DNA from: an uncultured Synergistales bacterium
Lineage (GTDB): Bacteria; Synergistota; Synergistia; Synergistales; Aminobacteriaceae
Reading direction: 5' to 3'
DNA length: 48,686 nucleotides
Assembly: GCA_905233565.1 (NCBI GenBank)
Contig: CAJOCL010000008.1
Coordinates: forward strand, 15,462 to 64,147
The notes under the pieces are model-generated. The model worked only from the letters and a program-made list of their open reading frames with translations. It was not told the DNA's origin and made no database searches. A program made the position numbers and the translations under genes. Shown here piece by piece: positions 7,828 to 48,686 of the stretch. The first letter of the stretch is position 1. Every line of letters begins with the position of its first letter.

Positions 7828-8780
7828 GCAGCAAAGATTTTAACAAAGATTTTAATCTTGATAATCTTACGCCTGAGTCGACGCTGTTATATTTCCTGCG
7901 CGTAATTTTCGCGTCTGACTGTGAATACGCCGTTTATATTCCTGATTTCGGGGGTGCAATAGTCCTGCATAAATCGCAGCTTGTCTTTCTTGTTGAAAGG
8001 GGCTGTTCAGACGCTATGATAAAGACGCTTCCCCAGCTTTCAGAGCGCAATATCGTCAAGCCCGTTAATCTTGAAGAAATTGAATATCCTGATGACGTTC
8101 AGGCTTTATACGTTGAGACGACAGGGGCATTTATCGGAAGCCTTGAGACGGCGTTAAATCCTGATGAGCCGCAATATCCGAAATGGTGGGACGCTCCCGT
8201 ACCTTTTGCGATTTCGTCAAGGGGAGTTCTGAGGCTGAACGATACGGCTTTGAGCATGTTCGGGACTGGTCTTGAAAAGATGAATGCCGCTGAACTTCCA
8301 GAACGCGATGAATTTATAGTGAGATTAGACGGGACGAATGCGACGAGATTTATTGCGTTCAGGAAACTAAGGCCGGGAATTTTTACGGTTGACGACTGCA
8401 CGGAAGATCTTAATGATGCTCAGGATATGACGTGGTGGGCATCGGTCGGACAGGCTTGGGCAAAAGAAATCGAGGCAAAGGGCGGAAAATGGCAGAGATT
8501 GTCAGCACCTCCCGAAGGTAAGACAAAAGGCTTCATGACATGCGAATGGCAGGGACAGTTACAGGGATATTTTGATATTCAGATGCCTAAACGCGCTAAA
8601 CCGTCAGAAAAAATTGAAGTCCCTGAAGTTCTGCCGGAATCAGAATATAATGAAAATGAGCCTCTTCAACCTGAGCCTTTAACAGCAAGACATTCTGATG
8701 ACGTTATAGGCAGCATAGGGCCGCAGGCAATGGCACTTTTGACAGCAGGACAATCAAGGGAACACGAGGGATATTATTAA
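7824..8780 (+). CDS. Conserved-looking protein of unknown function, possible PAS-like core
   Basis: The protein has 318 residues and starts at GTG 7824, overlapping the ftsY stop (GTGA), so it is probably coupled to ftsY. I do not recognise the family. It has no signal peptide or TM segment. Residues about 128-200 (P-F-A-I-S-S-R-G-V-L-R-L-N-D-T-A-L-S-M-F-G, then a strand-rich stretch) resemble a PAS-like sensory fold, which is weak evidence. Two Trp pairs (W-W near 120 and 203) are conspicuous. The C-terminal 60 residues are Pro/Glu-rich and probably disordered. It lies in a coupled run with ftsY and the DUF4416 gene. A cytosolic housekeeping or regulatory role is possible but cannot be stated. 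Confidence 0.7.
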   Translation: MSSKDFNKDFNLDNLTPESTLLYFLRVIFASDCEYAVYIPDFGGAIVLHKSQLVFLVERGCSDAMIKTLPQLSERNIVKPVNLEEIEYPDDVQALYVETTGAFIGSLETALNPDEPQYPKWWDAPVPFAISSRGVLRLNDTALSMFGTGLEKMNAAELPERDEFIVRLDGTNATRFIAFRKLRPGIFTVDDCTEDLNDAQDMTWWASVGQAWAKEIEAKGGKWQRLSAPPEGKTKGFMTCEWQGQLQGYFDIQMPKRAKPSEKIEVPEVLPESEYNENEPLQPEPLTARHSDDVIGSIGPQAMALLTAGQSREHEGYY

Positions 8781-8782
8781 TC

Positions 8783-9289
8783 ATGAAAGAACCTAAAGTA
8801 AAACGGATAACGGGGATTTTATACCCTGATGATAATTTTCTTGAATGGAGCATAAACAGGCTTTCTGAAATATGGGGGAAGCCTGAACTTTTAAGCACTC
8901 CCGTAAAATTCGATAAGACGGATTATTATGATTACATTTCGCCTGATTTAACCAGAATATTTTTGAGTTTTCCCGGCCTTGTGAACGCTGGGGGTCTTGC
9001 TGACTGGAAACACGAGGCAATAGAGATTGAAGCCCTCAGCAGGCAGCCCGTACGCGCAGTGAATATAGATCCGGGTTATGTTGACGGCGCGAGGCTTATA
9101 TTAGCGTCAACGAAAGACCATGCACACAGGATTTATCTGCGTGACGGAATTTACGGGGAAGTTACAATGCGTTACAGGTTCAGGAAGTGGCAGAGTTTTG
9201 ATTACACGTTCCCTGATTTTGCAAGCGGCTGTTATGATGATTTTCTGCTGAAAGTCCGTAAATCATGGCTCAGGGAGGTAAAAGAATGA
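8783..9289 (+). CDS. DUF4416 family protein
   Basis: The protein has 168 residues. The pattern matches my memory of DUF4416: an N-terminal G-I-L-Y-P-D-D, a D-K-T-D-Y-Y-D-Y segment, then V-N-I-D-P-G-Y-V-D-G-A-R-L-I-L-A-S-T-K-D-H-A-H-R split across residues 93-117, Y-L-R-D-G-I-Y-G-E-V-T and a closing T-F-P-D-F segment. The family is of unknown function and occurs in several anaerobic diderm lineages. The conserved Asp, Lys and His residues around the central motif suggest an enzyme or nucleotide-binding protein, but no reaction is known. It begins two bases after the previous stop and overlaps the next gene by four bases (ATGA), so it is part of the ftsY cluster. Confidence 0.85.
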   Translation: MKEPKVKRITGILYPDDNFLEWSINRLSEIWGKPELLSTPVKFDKTDYYDYISPDLTRIFLSFPGLVNAGGLADWKHEAIEIEALSRQPVRAVNIDPGYVDGARLILASTKDHAHRIYLRDGIYGEVTMRYRFRKWQSFDYTFPDFASGCYDDFLLKVRKSWLREVKE

Positions 9290-9768
9290 AGGTTAAAATT
9301 TTAGCTTTTCTTTTTTCAGTAATAATATGCAGTGTATCATCAGCGGATGTAAAAATTGAACTTCCTGAAGTTATAGGCTCGTGGCACATGTCGGGAAAAT
9401 TTGAAAAACCTTTAATCACTGAGTACAACGGCGAAAATCAAGGCACCGTTGCTTATTTCACGTACAGCCGTAACACCCCTAATGGAACTCTTGAAGTTAT
9501 ACTGACTGAAGGGGCGGGGACGGGGAATATTTACATTCCTGAAAGTGTCGGAAAATCTAAAGGTCTTATGAGTGCCGATGCTGATTTTGAAATTCTTGAA
9601 ATTTCGGGGCATGACGCGTTAATCGAAAATCAATCATATTTGCCCCTTGTACTGGCAATTAACGTCAGCAATAATATAACGCTCACTCTTGAAAGCCAAT
9701 CGCTTAATAAAAGTGAGATTATAAATATTGCGGAGATGATTTTGTCAGAATGGAACGTTACAGAATAG
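9286..9768 (+). CDS. Small secreted protein of unknown function
   Basis: The protein has 160 residues. It begins M-K-V-K-I-L-A-F-L-F-S-V-I-I-C-S-V-S-S-A-D, a clear Sec signal peptide with likely cleavage after S-S-A at residue 20. The mature part of about 140 residues looks beta-rich and has no Cys. ATG 9286 overlaps the DUF4416 stop (ATGA) and has GGGAGG (9273-9278) seven bases upstream. An in-frame ATG at 9265 would place the signal peptide internally and is rejected. Family not recognised. Its export to the periplasm or outside contrasts with its cytosolic neighbours. It overlaps the aminotransferase gene by 19 bases. Confidence 0.75.
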   Translation: MKVKILAFLFSVIICSVSSADVKIELPEVIGSWHMSGKFEKPLITEYNGENQGTVAYFTYSRNTPNGTLEVILTEGAGTGNIYIPESVGKSKGLMSADADFEILEISGHDALIENQSYLPLVLAINVSNNITLTLESQSLNKSEIINIAEMILSEWNVTE

Positions 9769-10829
9769 GATTAATTCCCGGCCCCGTAAGAATACCTGAG
9801 GAAATAAAAAGAATTTGGCTTAACGATTACGCAAGCCCTGACATTGAGGACGAATTTTTCACGCTTTATCACGAAGACCAGATATTAATCCGGAGATTAT
9901 TAAACACAAAGAACGACATAATAATAACTTTGGGCGAGGCCATGTCGGTTTTGTGGGCAGCCCTTAAATCAACGCTTAAACAGGGCGATAGGATGCTCGC
10001 CGTTTCATCGGGATTATTCGGCGACGGTTTTGCTGAAATGTCGCGGGCATTCGGCGTAAATGCTGAAGTCTGTTCATTCCCGTATGATGAAATCCCAGAC
10101 CCTGAAAAAGTCCGTGAACATGCCTTGAAGTTCAGGCCGAAAGTAATAACTGCCGTGCATTGTGAGACACCTTCGGGGACGTTGACAACGTGCCTGCATG
10201 AAATCGGGAAGATTGCGCGTGAAGTTGATGCTCTTTTTGTTGTTGACTTTGTATCAAGTGCAGGGGGGGCATTTCTTGACGTTGACTACTACAATATAGA
10301 TATAGGACTTTTAGGAAGCCAGAAAGTTTTATCGCTTCCGCCGTCTTTGTCAATATCTTCAATTTCAGAAAGAGCATGGGAAATTATCGAAAAAGTTAAA
10401 TATTCAGGTTATGAGGCTTATTCAGGCTGGAAAAACGTACCTTCTGAACATTTAACGCCGTACACTCACGATTGGAACGCCGTTAAAGCCCTTAACATTT
10501 CATTAAATATGATTTTGTCTGAAGGTCTCGAAAATGTATTCAAACGGCACGAGAACACCGCAAAATTATGCCGTTCTTTAGGGCGCGAAATAGGATTGAA
10601 GCTCTATCCGAAAAGTGAGGACATCTGCTCGCCTACGGTAACAGCGTTCTATGTCCCTGAAAAATTTACATGGCCTGAATTTGATTCAAGGCTGCGTGAA
10701 AAGGGCTTGGCTGTCGGCGGAAATTACGGCATTCTTTCAGGAAAAGTCTTCAGGATCGGACATATGGGCAGTCAGGCAGATTGTGAACTTATAAGCGAGG
10801 CAATGAACATTATCAGGGAATTATGCTAA
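9750..10829 (+). CDS. Class V PLP-dependent aminotransferase (alanine-glyoxylate / serine-pyruvate type)
   Basis: The 359-residue protein starts with L-I-P-G-P-V-R-I-P, the typical opening of the serine-pyruvate/alanine-glyoxylate aminotransferase group. It carries the co-factor aspartate in F-V-V-D-F-V-S-S-A-G-G (about 167) and the PLP Schiff-base lysine in G-S-Q-K-V-L-S-L-P-P (about 192). The enzyme would transfer an amino group between Ser or Ala and a 2-oxo acid in the cytosol. Purine, serine and phosphonate (2-AEP) branches share this fold, so the substrate is open. The G-S-Q-K-x-L-x-x-P-P form favours the Ala/Ser-glyoxylate group. It lies inside the ftsY-purB-miaB run, overlapping the secreted protein gene by 19 bases. 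Confidence 0.85.
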   Translation: MERYRIGLIPGPVRIPEEIKRIWLNDYASPDIEDEFFTLYHEDQILIRRLLNTKNDIIITLGEAMSVLWAALKSTLKQGDRMLAVSSGLFGDGFAEMSRAFGVNAEVCSFPYDEIPDPEKVREHALKFRPKVITAVHCETPSGTLTTCLHEIGKIAREVDALFVVDFVSSAGGAFLDVDYYNIDIGLLGSQKVLSLPPSLSISSISERAWEIIEKVKYSGYEAYSGWKNVPSEHLTPYTHDWNAVKALNISLNMILSEGLENVFKRHENTAKLCRSLGREIGLKLYPKSEDICSPTVTAFYVPEKFTWPEFDSRLREKGLAVGGNYGILSGKVFRIGHMGSQADCELISEAMNIIRELC

Positions 10830-45021: not shown

Positions 45022-46944
45022 TCACTCCCTGCCCTGAATTATTTTTTCTGAAGGGATGTACTTGGCAAGCATCTCTTCAAGTTCCTTTCCGTTTACGGGC
45101 TTGCTGAGGAAATCGTCAAAACCTGCCGAAAGAAGTTCAGCCCTTACGCCGACAAGCGCGTTAGCCGTGCAGACAATGACTTTTGCTTTTGAACCCGGTG
45201 AATCTCTCATCTCCTTCAGGCGTGATAAAGTCTCTTTACCGTCCATTTTAGGCATCATGTAATCCATTAATATTACGTCATAAGCATTCTTTGAACACTT
45301 GTTCAGACACTCCTCGCCTGATTCTGCCTCATCAATTTTCACCTGATTTTCTTTCATGAGTGAGCGCAGAACTATTCTGTTCATGTCATTGTCATCAACG
45401 ATTAATATTTTTGCGTCAGGAGCTTTCAGGACTGTACGTTCTTCCTTCTTTGCGTGGGATGCTTCGATTTCGTAATCTCTTATTGTCTTTGTGCCGACTA
45501 TTTTTTGAGGGATTACTACGTGGAAAGTTGAGCCGATCCCGTAAGTTGACGTAACTTCAACATTTCCTCCCATAAGTTCAATTAAACGCCCGGTAATCGC
45601 AAGTCCCAGCCCCGTACCCTCGATATTATGTGTCTCTTTAGCGTCAATCCTGCTGAATGACTTAAATAATTTCGGTATGTCTTCGGCGTGTATGCCGATT
45701 CCTGTATCCGTAACGGTTATGTGAAGCACGATTAATGACGGGTCATCGCCTTTTACTCCCGTAAGCGTGAATTTAACGCTTCCCCGTTTCGTGTATTTAA
45801 CGGCGTTGTTAAGAATGTTGACCATGATTTGATGTACCCTTATCCTGTCGCCGAAAAGCTCATCGGGCAGTGAGTCATCAATCTGGGCAATATACTGAAG
45901 TCCTTTCTGTTCTGCCCGGATCTTTATCATGTTGTCAACGTCCCTCAATACCTGGCCTAAATCGTAATTCCTAGCAGCAAGTTCAAGCTGTCCCGATTCG
46001 ATTTTCGAGAAGTCTAAAATATCGTTGATTATGTGAAGCAGTGTATTGCCCGCGCTCTGAATGTCCCTTGCGTATTCGTAGACGGGGCCGGCCTCGTATT
46101 TCCTGAGAATGACTTCATCCATTCCCATTATTGTAGTCAGGGGAGTACGGATTTCATGGGACATGTTGGCAAGGAACTCGCCTTTTGCGGCATCAGCGGC
46201 GATTGCCTGTTCGTTTGCCTCGTCAGCGATTGCCTTTGCTTTCCGCAGCCTTTCGAGTGTCCGCTCAAGATCCCTGTATGCCGGTGTCTCAAGAAGGAAG
46301 AAATAATAATAAACATTCACTGAAATAATTATGAACTGTACGGGAACATCAGGGAAAAATACGGACTGACAGAAAATAATTATCCAGCAGACTATTAAAT
46401 TTCCGGCCAATGCCCAGAGCTGCCCCCTTGTGAAAGCCTTGCTGTACATGTATATCTCCGCCCAAGTCCAAACTGACCATATGACTATAAATCCTGAAGA
46501 TAAAAGCCAGTTCAGCGCACCTTCAACGAGTTTTGAACCATCGGGGGAAATTGCATAATTTGCTCCAGTGAAGTGTCCTGCTAACTGAAGATAAAAGAAC
46601 AATCCAAGAATAACATTTTGCGCGTAATACATCCTTCTGCGTCCGGGCGTGTCTGAGCCGAAACATGATATATATTTCATGAACATAAAATAAACTCCGC
46701 AGTCGGCACACTGAAGAAGTATCGAACATAAATATTTTGAGCTTATTGAAAAAGCTGAACCCTTAGCAAGAACGAATGATACAAGAACATCAATGACGCT
46801 GCTTGCCGTTGTCATGTAACAATAGCGGAGAAGTCCTTTTTTTTCTGACGAAGTACCAGCGTAGATAATCTGAAGATAAACACATAACGTAACACTCAAA
46901 AATATAACGGCTATTTCTGACTCGATAATATAATGGCTCTCCAA
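45022..46944 (-). CDS. Hybrid histidine kinase paralogue, multi-TM sensor with C-terminal receiver
   Basis: The 640-residue protein has the same architecture as the next gene: about seven TM helices (1-220), HisKA with His 263 (A-N-M-S-H-E-I-R-T-P), HATPase (N-A-V-K-Y-T, D-T-G-I-G-I, G-T-G-L-G-L-A) and a receiver with Asp 561 (I-L-M-D-Y-M-M-P-K-M-D-G). The two are clearly a tandem duplication that has diverged, most strongly in the TM sensor. The start is TTG 46944, with AAGGAG 11 bases upstream. It is the first gene of the signalling block and is divergent from the MATE gene. Confidence 0.9.
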   Translation of the reverse strand: MESHYIIESEIAVIFLSVTLCVYLQIIYAGTSSEKKGLLRYCYMTTASSVIDVLVSFVLAKGSAFSISSKYLCSILLQCADCGVYFMFMKYISCFGSDTPGRRRMYYAQNVILGLFFYLQLAGHFTGANYAISPDGSKLVEGALNWLLSSGFIVIWSVWTWAEIYMYSKAFTRGQLWALAGNLIVCWIIIFCQSVFFPDVPVQFIIISVNVYYYFFLLETPAYRDLERTLERLRKAKAIADEANEQAIAADAAKGEFLANMSHEIRTPLTTIMGMDEVILRKYEAGPVYEYARDIQSAGNTLLHIINDILDFSKIESGQLELAARNYDLGQVLRDVDNMIKIRAEQKGLQYIAQIDDSLPDELFGDRIRVHQIMVNILNNAVKYTKRGSVKFTLTGVKGDDPSLIVLHITVTDTGIGIHAEDIPKLFKSFSRIDAKETHNIEGTGLGLAITGRLIELMGGNVEVTSTYGIGSTFHVVIPQKIVGTKTIRDYEIEASHAKKEERTVLKAPDAKILIVDDNDMNRIVLRSLMKENQVKIDEAESGEECLNKCSKNAYDVILMDYMMPKMDGKETLSRLKEMRDSPGSKAKVIVCTANALVGVRAELLSAGFDDFLSKPVNGKELEEMLAKYIPSEKIIQGRE

Positions 46945-46996
46945 GTTTCTTTTAACTCCTTAGACAAGATAAAAATAATTAAAAATAAACGTTAAT

Positions 46997-47002
46997 ATTA
47001 TA
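46997..47002 (-). promoter_or_regulatory. Candidate -10 box for the hybrid kinase operon
   Basis: TATAAT on the minus strand lies 52 bases before the TTG start at 46944, in the divergent intergenic region 46,945-47,156. No convincing -35 box was found. Confidence 0.3.
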
Positions 47003-47064
47003 TAACCTGTGAAGGGCTATAGAGTATGTCATCATGAATAATAAAGTATGAAAAATAAAGGGAG

Positions 47065-47093
47065 TTCAACCCAAAGATACACTCTGATATAAT
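47065..47093 (+). promoter_or_regulatory. Extended -10 promoter for the MATE-HATPase gene
   Basis: TGATATAAT (47085-47093) is a perfect extended -10 element (TGnTATAAT). TTCAAC (47065-47070) is a partial -35 at 17-base spacing. It lies 63 bases before the ATG at 47157. Confidence 0.55.
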
Positions 47094-47112
47094 ACGAAAT
47101 TCAATAAACATT

Positions 47113-47140
47113 AAATTTATATCGGAAAATTTATATCGGA
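47113..47140 (+). repeat. Perfect 14-bp tandem direct repeat in the leader of the MATE gene
   Basis: AAATTTATATCGGA occurs twice head to tail (47113-47126 and 47127-47140). The GGA of the second copy forms part of the GGAGGG ribosome-binding site (47138-47143). Confidence 0.9.
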
Positions 47141-47156
47141 GGGATAATTTACACAC

Positions 47157-48686
47157 ATGCTGAAAAGTGATTCACAATCCGACTTAATACCCTCAATGTT
47201 TGTTTCAACGGCTGTAGCTATGATCTTCACACAGCTTGCCGGGTATGTTGCAGTTCTTATTGACGGAATAATCACAAGCAGGGCTTTAGGGTATCTGGCA
47301 TACTCGGCAATATCTCTTCTCGTTCCCTTCAACGGCGTAATACTCCTCGTAAGCATGGGAATTTCAGCGGGCGTAAATGTCGTATGCTCTCAGGCTGTAG
47401 GGCGCGGCGAAAAGGACAAAGCTCATTCCGCTTTCACTGTCGGTGTTATTGCGGTGATTGTTTCTGCGCTGCTTCTTGTCATTGCGTGCGTGTTATGGCC
47501 GTCTGAGCTTTTCAGAATCTGCGGAATAACAGAAACTTCACACCCCGAAATCTATTCGCACATGGCCGGATACCTCAAAGGCTACATGCCCGGTATACTT
47601 TTCCAGATGATGATACAGATTCTCGGTCCTGTAATAGTTATTGACAGCGGCAAAGCGTTATTCACATCGTCGTCATTCTTTTTTGCGGGCGCGGATATTG
47701 CCGGGGATTTGCTGAATGCTTATGTCTTTCACGGCGGCACTTTCGGAATGGGACTCGCTACGTCAGCTTCATACTTTCTTCAATTCTTGATGTTAATGAC
47801 TCACTTCATGAAGAACACCTCTTACTTCAGGATTTCGCTGAAAGGCTTCGAGTCTTCACAGCTCACGGAAATGATGAAGGCCGCTTCACCTATGTTAGTG
47901 CTTAAACTTGCTACGGCGTTAAGGGATTTGGCCGTCAACAGAATCAATCTCAGCGTTGCACTTTCAGCGGCGGCGATTGCGGCGAGGGGCATACAGAACG
48001 ATTTGAACACCGTGCTTTTCTGCATAGGAATCGGAATCGGGAATGCCGTTATCATAATGGCAGGAATGTTTTTCGGAGCCAATGACCGCCGGGGAATGAA
48101 CCGCCTTTTCTCATGCACTGTGAAAATGTCTGTCATCATTGCCGGTACTGCAGGTGTGATTTCGTATTTCTTTGCTGAATGGATCGCTGAGTGTTTCACG
48201 TCTGATCCTGAAGTCATAAATTTTGCGGCATTCAGCATAAAGTGCATGGCATTGGGGCTTGTGCCTGATACCTTGTCGGTTGTGTATCAGCGTTACCTGC
48301 AGGGAATCAATGAGCGCGGGCTTGTAAATTTCCTGAGTTTTGCTGACAGATTTTTTATCCCTGTGGCAGCTGCTTACGTTATGGGAACTTATTTCGGCTC
48401 AAAAGGCATAATGGCTTCAATTGCTGCCGGAAAAATTATTCTCATCATTTTTATTGCGGTTACAATTTTAGTGCGTACAGGCTCACTCAGAAATTTCATG
48501 TTCCTTCCTGAAAATTTCGGCGGAACAAACGCGGATAACATTTACTCTTCGATAACTTCACAGTGCGATGTCATGAGAGAATGCAAGAGGGCTGAAATAT
48601 TTTGCCAGGATCACGGAGTCAGCGCGAGGGACTCAAAATTGACGGCACTATTCATTGAGGAGGCTGCCGGGAATATTATCGCGCAC
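47157..48686 (+). CDS. MATE-family transporter fused to an anti-sigma/serine-kinase-like HATPase domain (3' end outside window)
   Basis: The first 510 codons are visible and the frame is open to the last base. Residues 1 to about 445 form a MATE (MatE) multidrug/organic cation antiporter fold with about 12 TM helices. Hallmarks include F-T-Q-L-A-G-Y-V-A-V-L-I-D-G-I-I near 30 and Q-A-V-G-R-G-E near 80. From about 458 a soluble part begins (N-I-Y-S-S-I-T-S-Q-C-D-V-M, then A-E-I-F-C-Q-D-H-G) and reaches I-E-E-A-A-G-N-I-I-A-H at 500-510. That is the N-box of RsbW/SpoIIAB-like HATPase domains (EExxxN). The G1/G2 boxes lie beyond the window. ATG 47157 has GGAGGG 13 bases upstream. It is divergent from the hybrid kinases. 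Confidence 0.8.
   Translation, partial: MLKSDSQSDLIPSMFVSTAVAMIFTQLAGYVAVLIDGIITSRALGYLAYSAISLLVPFNGVILLVSMGISAGVNVVCSQAVGRGEKDKAHSAFTVGVIAVIVSALLLVIACVLWPSELFRICGITETSHPEIYSHMAGYLKGYMPGILFQMMIQILGPVIVIDSGKALFTSSSFFFAGADIAGDLLNAYVFHGGTFGMGLATSASYFLQFLMLMTHFMKNTSYFRISLKGFESSQLTEMMKAASPMLVLKLATALRDLAVNRINLSVALSAAAIAARGIQNDLNTVLFCIGIGIGNAVIIMAGMFFGANDRRGMNRLFSCTVKMSVIIAGTAGVISYFFAEWIAECFTSDPEVINFAAFSIKCMALGLVPDTLSVVYQRYLQGINERGLVNFLSFADRFFIPVAAAYVMGTYFGSKGIMASIAAGKIILIIFIAVTILVRTGSLRNFMFLPENFGGTNADNIYSSITSQCDVMRECKRAEIFCQDHGVSARDSKLTALFIEEAAGNIIAH

Follow-up and report, generated by a model that had tools for sequence, protein, structure and literature searches.

The gene at the end of the DNA analyzed here encodes a MATE exporter whose cytoplasmic C-terminus is fused to a HATPase_c_2 domain of the SpoIIAB/RsbW type. 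We posit, with a probability of about 0.5, that this GHKL tail acts as a regulatory receptor on which a STAS protein docks to gate the transporter, and mostly not as a kinase. The proposal builds on the fusion itself and on its fold match, together with coupling aspartates that are conserved and a GGxG box that is not; sister genes add their operon links, and each partner STAS domain carries the SSAGL motif.

Gene structure and domain identity

The window, that is, the whole stretch of 48,686 nucleotides, corresponds to positions 15462-64147 of contig C8 in the host genome (G000; 2.02 Mb, 34 contigs). It ends together with the contig (64,147 bp), and the gene, which starts with ATG and stays open to the window end (Table 1), is therefore cut by an assembly gap. 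A search of the contigs of the same genome did not find the missing 3' end; from the downstream part of the operon, just the tail of a TIM-barrel protein and a cyclase were recovered, at the end of contig C4. Orthologues from the same genus of rumen Synergistaceae are whole (592-618 aa) and share 84% (G030), 71% (G005), 70% (G004), 68% (G002), 65% (G021) and 56% (G010) identity with the window protein. The genus members that bear names are uncultured Fretibacterium sp. and Synergistaceae MAGs, with goat forestomach and abomasum as source. Another genome, G068, holds a copy with 98% DNA identity (L158), and its C-terminus very probably resembles the missing end of the window gene.

Pfam MatE matched the cut window protein in two stretches (E 4.2e-30). 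In a sequence alignment to 6hfb/4mlb, D36 (47262-47264) and D184 (47706-47708) fall on D41 and D184 of PfMATE (PF0708), i.e., both N-lobe cation-coupling aspartates of MATE are present. A model of a whole orthologous protein matched MATE structures in a fold search (best E 9.5e-11); this full-length model is of low confidence (mean pLDDT 56.2) and was used for fold matching only. Because of the aligned coupling aspartates and these structural matches, the transporter part looks like a functional, cation-coupled MATE exporter. It has Pfam MatE, the fold and both aspartates in common with PfMATE, DinF-BH and ClbM of the MOP superfamily, but the fused gene adds a linker and a cytoplasmic domain of ~125 residues.

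A sequence-only reading of the window had described the frame as running, after the last transmembrane helix, into an RsbW/SpoIIAB-like domain with the N-box IEEAAGNIIAH, and our analysis confirms both the domain and the motif. The ExxxN pattern of switch serine kinases is present (IEEAAGN, 48654-48674), and it is not a chance motif, since orthologues at 84-58% identity run on through a whole HATPase domain. Their frames extend for ~90 residues, with GKPK..., a beta pair, LRDCC..FDPSAFYEAHKDDS and then xGIKIVMxLADDVRYF.AF.SNNIMI.ID. The HATPase stub in the cut window protein is too short for a separate Pfam call; whole orthologues pass the HATPase_c_2 profile search proposed as a check, with L017 reaching 32.0 bits (curated cut-off 27.4). 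Both MatE and HATPase_c_2 were matched in 18/18 of a diverse member set.

Searching PDB sequences with the domain profile or with the RsbW of the host gave no meaningful match, and a fold search was therefore required. For this, the tail (161 aa) was modeled in AlphaFold with 6 orthologues, at modest confidence (mean pLDDT 62.7). The best PDB matches of the model were SpoIIAB with SpoIIAA or sigma F (1th8, 1tid, 1l0o, 1til), UsfX-RsfB, RsbV/RsbW and a sigF/anti-sigma complex, and nearly all of the top 19 were SpoIIAB, RsbW, UsfX or anti-sigma-F structures. As modeled, the C-terminal domain has a Bergerat-type fold like that of SpoIIAB/RsbW, so that the sequence-only reading had named the domain correctly.

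SpoIIAB, RsbW and UsfX are anti-sigma kinases of partner switches that also comprise STAS proteins (SpoIIAA, RsbV) and PP2C phosphatases (SpoIIE, RsbU). The fused domain is similar to them in fold, N-box and G1 aspartate, and sister operons likewise encode STAS, PP2C and RsbW-like proteins. It differs in being carried by a 12-TM transporter, in its mostly cysteine-substituted G1 glycine and in the lost GGxG; furthermore, no sigma factor gene was noticed beside the fused gene on inspection in passing. SLC26/SulP proteins are likewise transporters with a partner-switch domain on the cytoplasmic tail, which is a C-terminal STAS domain in SLC26/SulP, whereas the MATE-HATPase tail is a STAS-binding kind of domain (in part from PMC8256260).

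Table 1. Features of the window and gene order in partner-linked operons of related loci.
Feature	Position	Strand	Description
MATE-HATPase_c_2 fusion gene	47157..48686	+	510 codons present; 3' ~90-100 codons missing at contig end
MATE transporter part	47157..48476	+	residues 1-440, 12 TM helices; Pfam MatE
Linker TGSLRNFMFLPENFGG...	48477..48581	+	residues 441-475, last TM helix to soluble domain; from orthologue alignment and Pfam HATPase_c_2 start in L017
HATPase_c_2 domain start, SpoIIAB/RsbW-like	48582..48686	+	first 35 residues (476-510); from orthologue Pfam match and fold search of orthologue model
N-box IEEAAGNIIAH with E502, N506	48654..48686	+	from sequence
Hybrid histidine kinase	45022..46944	-	flanks the insertion site on the left; homology of the backbone to three relatives stops at ~46961 (46944 in G068)
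Window part of horizontally acquired operon	47128..48686	+	98% identity to G068 from 29 bp before ATG to contig end
L163, L172, L155			STAS-PP2C-MATE/HATPase operon; no separate kinase
L171			STAS, RsbW-like, MATE-HATPase, formyltransferase-like, PP2C
L137			STAS, PP2C, MATE-HATPase, then one STAS-APH-HATPase protein
L152			MATE-HATPase, STAS, PP2C-HATPase
L136, L138, L085 (host genome)			STAS-APH fusion adjoining MATE-HATPase

Kinase motifs of the fused domain

The window stops before the ATP-lid motifs, as had been noted from the sequence, and the G1 and G2 boxes lie beyond the contig end. Following up the proposal to read them in the rest of the gene, we found them partly preserved in the close orthologues: the G1 aspartate is kept in a box reading RDCC..FD, with cysteine in place of glycine, also in L158, but DxGxG/GxGxG are incomplete. 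DxG is absent from all orthologues of the window gene, L158 included, and so is the GGxG of the G2 box, where the orthologues have xxSG or xxPG (e.g., xxSGIKIV).

An alignment of 55 whole MATE-fused domains extends this picture to the family. Both N-box glutamates are conserved in 55/55, the N-box asparagine in 42/55 and the G1 aspartate in 52/55. The G1 glycine is replaced in 37/55 (C 34, S 2, A 1), and strict GGxG occurs in 0/55. In the neighborhoods of the fused genes, the HATPases that are not joined to an effector, being either separate proteins or fusions with PP2C or STAS-APH, retain both DxG and GGxG in 8/8 cases. The domains fused to an AMP ligase and an EamA transporter (n=2) are without GGxG, as in the MATEs, giving 0/57 for effector-fused HATPases overall. 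We interpret this contrast between non-effector and effector-fused domains as a division of labor, with true kinases beside effector-borne receptor domains.

A different role, in line with the switch-kinase idea of the sequence-only reading, would be that of an active serine kinase, with the transporter itself phosphorylating a STAS protein and so reporting substrate flux or an ion gradient to the partner switch. The conserved N-box and G1 aspartate would fit such an activity, and 14/55 domains retain all four residues (E, N, D, G) of these two boxes. Several STAS/PP2C operons also show no separate kinase, among them L163, L172 and L155, and the MATE-fused domains of L163 and L155 retain GxG (KGIGIK). 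Set against this are the complete absence of GGxG, the exchange of the G1 glycine in all orthologues of the window gene and the separate canonical kinase of operons L171, L145, L146, L148, L137 and L152. We therefore consider an active kinase unlikely. A working switch kinase finds no support in the window gene's orthologues, which are devoid of the two features that the kinases of sister operons keep, and from these motifs kinase activity of the fused domain is doubtful. Given the 14 intact domains and the GxG of L155 and L163, some fused domains may nevertheless be active, and in these two operons the transporter domain may itself be the kinase.

Partner-switch genes near fused transporters

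The neighborhoods of 54 fused genes were compared with those of 20 plain MATEs of the same groups. STAS, PP2C, APH and HATPase genes were labeled with models built from sequences gathered in the analysis, and operons were defined by same strand and gaps of ≤120 bp. Operons of fused genes contained STAS in 12/54, PP2C in 13/54, another HATPase protein in 7/54 and any of these partners in 18/54 cases, as against 0/20 for plain MATEs (one-sided Fisher P 0.0013, with draws that are not fully independent because the control MATEs partly belong to one orthologous group). The partner-linked fused MATEs are found on many branches of the tree and in two phyla (Synergistota, Clostridia), and their partner STAS domains carry the motif SSAGL in the phospho-acceptor loop in 15/15 cases. 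The remaining 36/54 fused genes, including the window gene's own group, are without an operon partner. The suggested link between transport and partner switching thus holds for the family, through STAS/PP2C operons in Synergistota and Clostridia, but not for the operon of the window gene.

STAS-APH fusions were seen at L137:8952-10538, L085:7395-8615, L136:5821-7026 and L138:8829-10010, always adjacent to a MATE-HATPase gene; a canonical HATPase domain has been added to them once, in L137. TIGR02172, considered as a name for the APH-type kinase, was not confirmed, and our literature search brought no paper on it. In L085 (G000 C4), the MATE-HATPase beside STAS-APH (8651-10205) is split into two overlapping frames of 152 and 410 aa, perhaps by a frameshift or an assembly error.

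Other enzymes also carry these domains or lie among them. The host operon L084 (G000 C5:180000-193948) consists of STAS, a condensation/acyltransferase-like protein, an enzyme of the alpha-amylase family, MATE-HATPase and an AMP ligase whose tail matches HATPase_c_2 weakly, and is adjoined by a PP2C gene. In L170 of G021, whose MATE is the sister of the L084 MATE, the AMP ligase carries STAS and not HATPase, an exchange of tails that, judged by domain matches, we take to be a Rosetta-stone swap. Both operons combine an AMP ligase, condensation/acyltransferase-like proteins and a MATE exporter, with the alpha-amylase-family enzyme in L084, and possibly represent a switch-controlled cluster for biosynthesis and export. 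Further gene arrangements are as follows: (i) the partner-switch operon L086:6755-12260 (G000 C16) with STAS, a phosphotransferase/GNAT-like protein, an EamA transporter whose HATPase tail is degenerate, a sensor PP2C and an RsbW-like kinase of canonical type, (ii) L196:6386-7648 (G000 C5:66385-67647) with a leucine carboxyl methyltransferase-like protein bearing a C-terminal STAS, and (iii) L154:5577-7178, where a clostridial operon has an acyl-adenylating enzyme of the GH3 family flanked by STAS and MATE-HATPase.

The operon of the window gene and its insertion

The window gene's operon consists of MATE-HATPase, a TIM barrel and a PAS-cyclase. In close relatives, the genes downstream of MATE-HATPase encode, in some cases, an APH-type phosphotransferase, then a TIM-barrel-like protein, labeled by eye and without Pfam match, and a protein with PAS and class III cyclase domains. 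The search for a STAS or PP2C gene downstream, which had been suggested earlier, turned up none in the operon of the window gene or in the labeled neighborhoods of its close orthologues. Any STAS partner must therefore be encoded elsewhere in the genome, where STAS proteins are present on C16, C5 and C4, in addition to the methyltransferase-STAS fusion on C5. We posit that the window gene's copy uses such a partner; its own link to partner switching would follow from homology to its relatives.

Alternatively, the domain could be a sensor of ATP/ADP or a metabolite that acts solely in cis, without any STAS protein, and its signal may relate to the cyclic nucleotide of the PAS-cyclase. An operon that lacks STAS and PP2C but has a class III cyclase is in agreement with this idea, as is the APH-type phosphotransferase of several relatives. 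However, conservation within the domain is lowest in the ATP lid/G2 region, and the repeated STAS/PP2C linkage in sister operons would be left unexplained, so that sensing in cis seems improbable to us.

The PAS-cyclase also matched PycC of the Pycsar system in PADLOC (E 4e-20). This match, explained by the shared class III cyclase domain, concerns a protein that bears a PAS domain here; no Pycsar effector was found, and the other genes of the operon had no PADLOC match. An assignment as a defense system was rejected, as PADLOC gave only the generic cyclase domain.

The gene had been described as lying opposite twin hybrid kinases, and this is true of its position. In G030, G068 and G004, only 56-73 bp separate the kinase pair from a third kinase gene, which in the host adjoins the cyclase on C4. 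As the empty site is intact in these relatives, the operon came to lie between two divergent hybrid-kinase genes by insertion. The stretch that begins 29 bp ahead of the ATG and runs up to the contig end is 87% identical to G030, while the kinase pair and other compared regions share 73-75% identity with the relatives. The inserted operon spans window positions 46962-48686 and the end of C4 (L195:11730-13168), at 98% identity to G068 versus 74% for the backbone. From these comparisons the operon is a recent, horizontally acquired arrival, and the ends of C8 and C4 face each other across the gap. Its mosaic identity to G068 (98% for the MATE gene, 90% for the cyclase) points to recombination as well. 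The position beside the kinases is accidental and, the operon being newly inserted there, uninformative on function.

That the gene was instead misjoined to C8 in an assembly chimera is very improbable: the position at a contig end and the 98% identity to another species' gene would be expected of one, but the other end of the operon lies on C4, with a backbone that continues the same empty-site homology in three relatives, a single misjoin is insufficient because both ends fit this site, and the fusion is present in many genomes anyway.

Distribution and origin of the fusion

The host genome contains the fused architecture at least about 7 times, on C3, C4, C5, C6, C8 and C20 and, as a related tail on a transporter of another family (EamA), on C16. 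We sampled 121 genomes of Synergistota and 243 of Clostridia, with all fusion counts being lower bounds. The MATE-HATPase fusion was found in at least 21/31 sampled genomes of the host genus and, among the Synergistota matches listed, also in G079 (another genus of the same family) and G104 (another family). In Clostridia, it was present in at least 19/243 genomes. The remaining MATEs among the matches listed end at profile position ~445 of 597.

A tree of MATE domains groups the fused proteins away from most plain ones, and within it Synergistota and Clostridia are interleaved. This suggests that the fusion is old and arose once or a few times, with exchange between gut and rumen lineages. 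A single origin was considered, but it is one of several possible histories, since on the tree the fused groups are separated by several changes. Our search of openly available literature found no paper on a MATE-HATPase fusion with partner switching, and the architecture may already be listed in domain databases. The loss of the G1 and G2 motifs might be read as the decay of a functionless appendage of an old fusion, a view with very little probability given that L507, E510, E511, D547 and N591 (L017 numbering) are invariant in members down to 22-26% identity, that the domain is retained in two phyla and that nearly all members have an uninterrupted frame.

Proposed mechanism and implications

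In the receptor model, the cytoplasmic C-terminus would be a GHKL domain of the SpoIIAB/RsbW type whose ATP lid is for the most part gone. The unphosphorylated STAS protein would dock on it, comparable to RsbV on RsbW, and docking would open or shut the transporter. A separate, true RsbW-like kinase would phosphorylate the STAS protein, and a PP2C phosphatase would restore it. Through a sensor on the phosphatase, export would then be controlled at the post-translational level and without an intervening sigma factor.

STAS-only proteins have been reviewed with partner switching seen as gene regulation, and the targets of several systems are unknown (PMC8256260). The operons of the relatives that contain the switch components suggest that exporters are controlled directly, beyond gene expression. 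More tentatively, and at somewhat less than even odds, we propose that a widespread, undescribed form of partner switching exists, in which STAS proteins act on effectors such as exporters, AMP ligases and EamA via catalytically dead, RsbW-like docking tags, and in which the phosphatase-kinase-STAS switch gates transport and metabolism post-translationally without a sigma factor. Operons in which STAS, PP2C and a true kinase accompany transporters or ligases with degenerate kinase domains represent concrete, testable non-sigma outputs, and they supply natural sets of a kinase and a dead-kinase domain for one STAS partner. For bacteria of the rumen and gut, this may be a possible route to switch exporters on and off.
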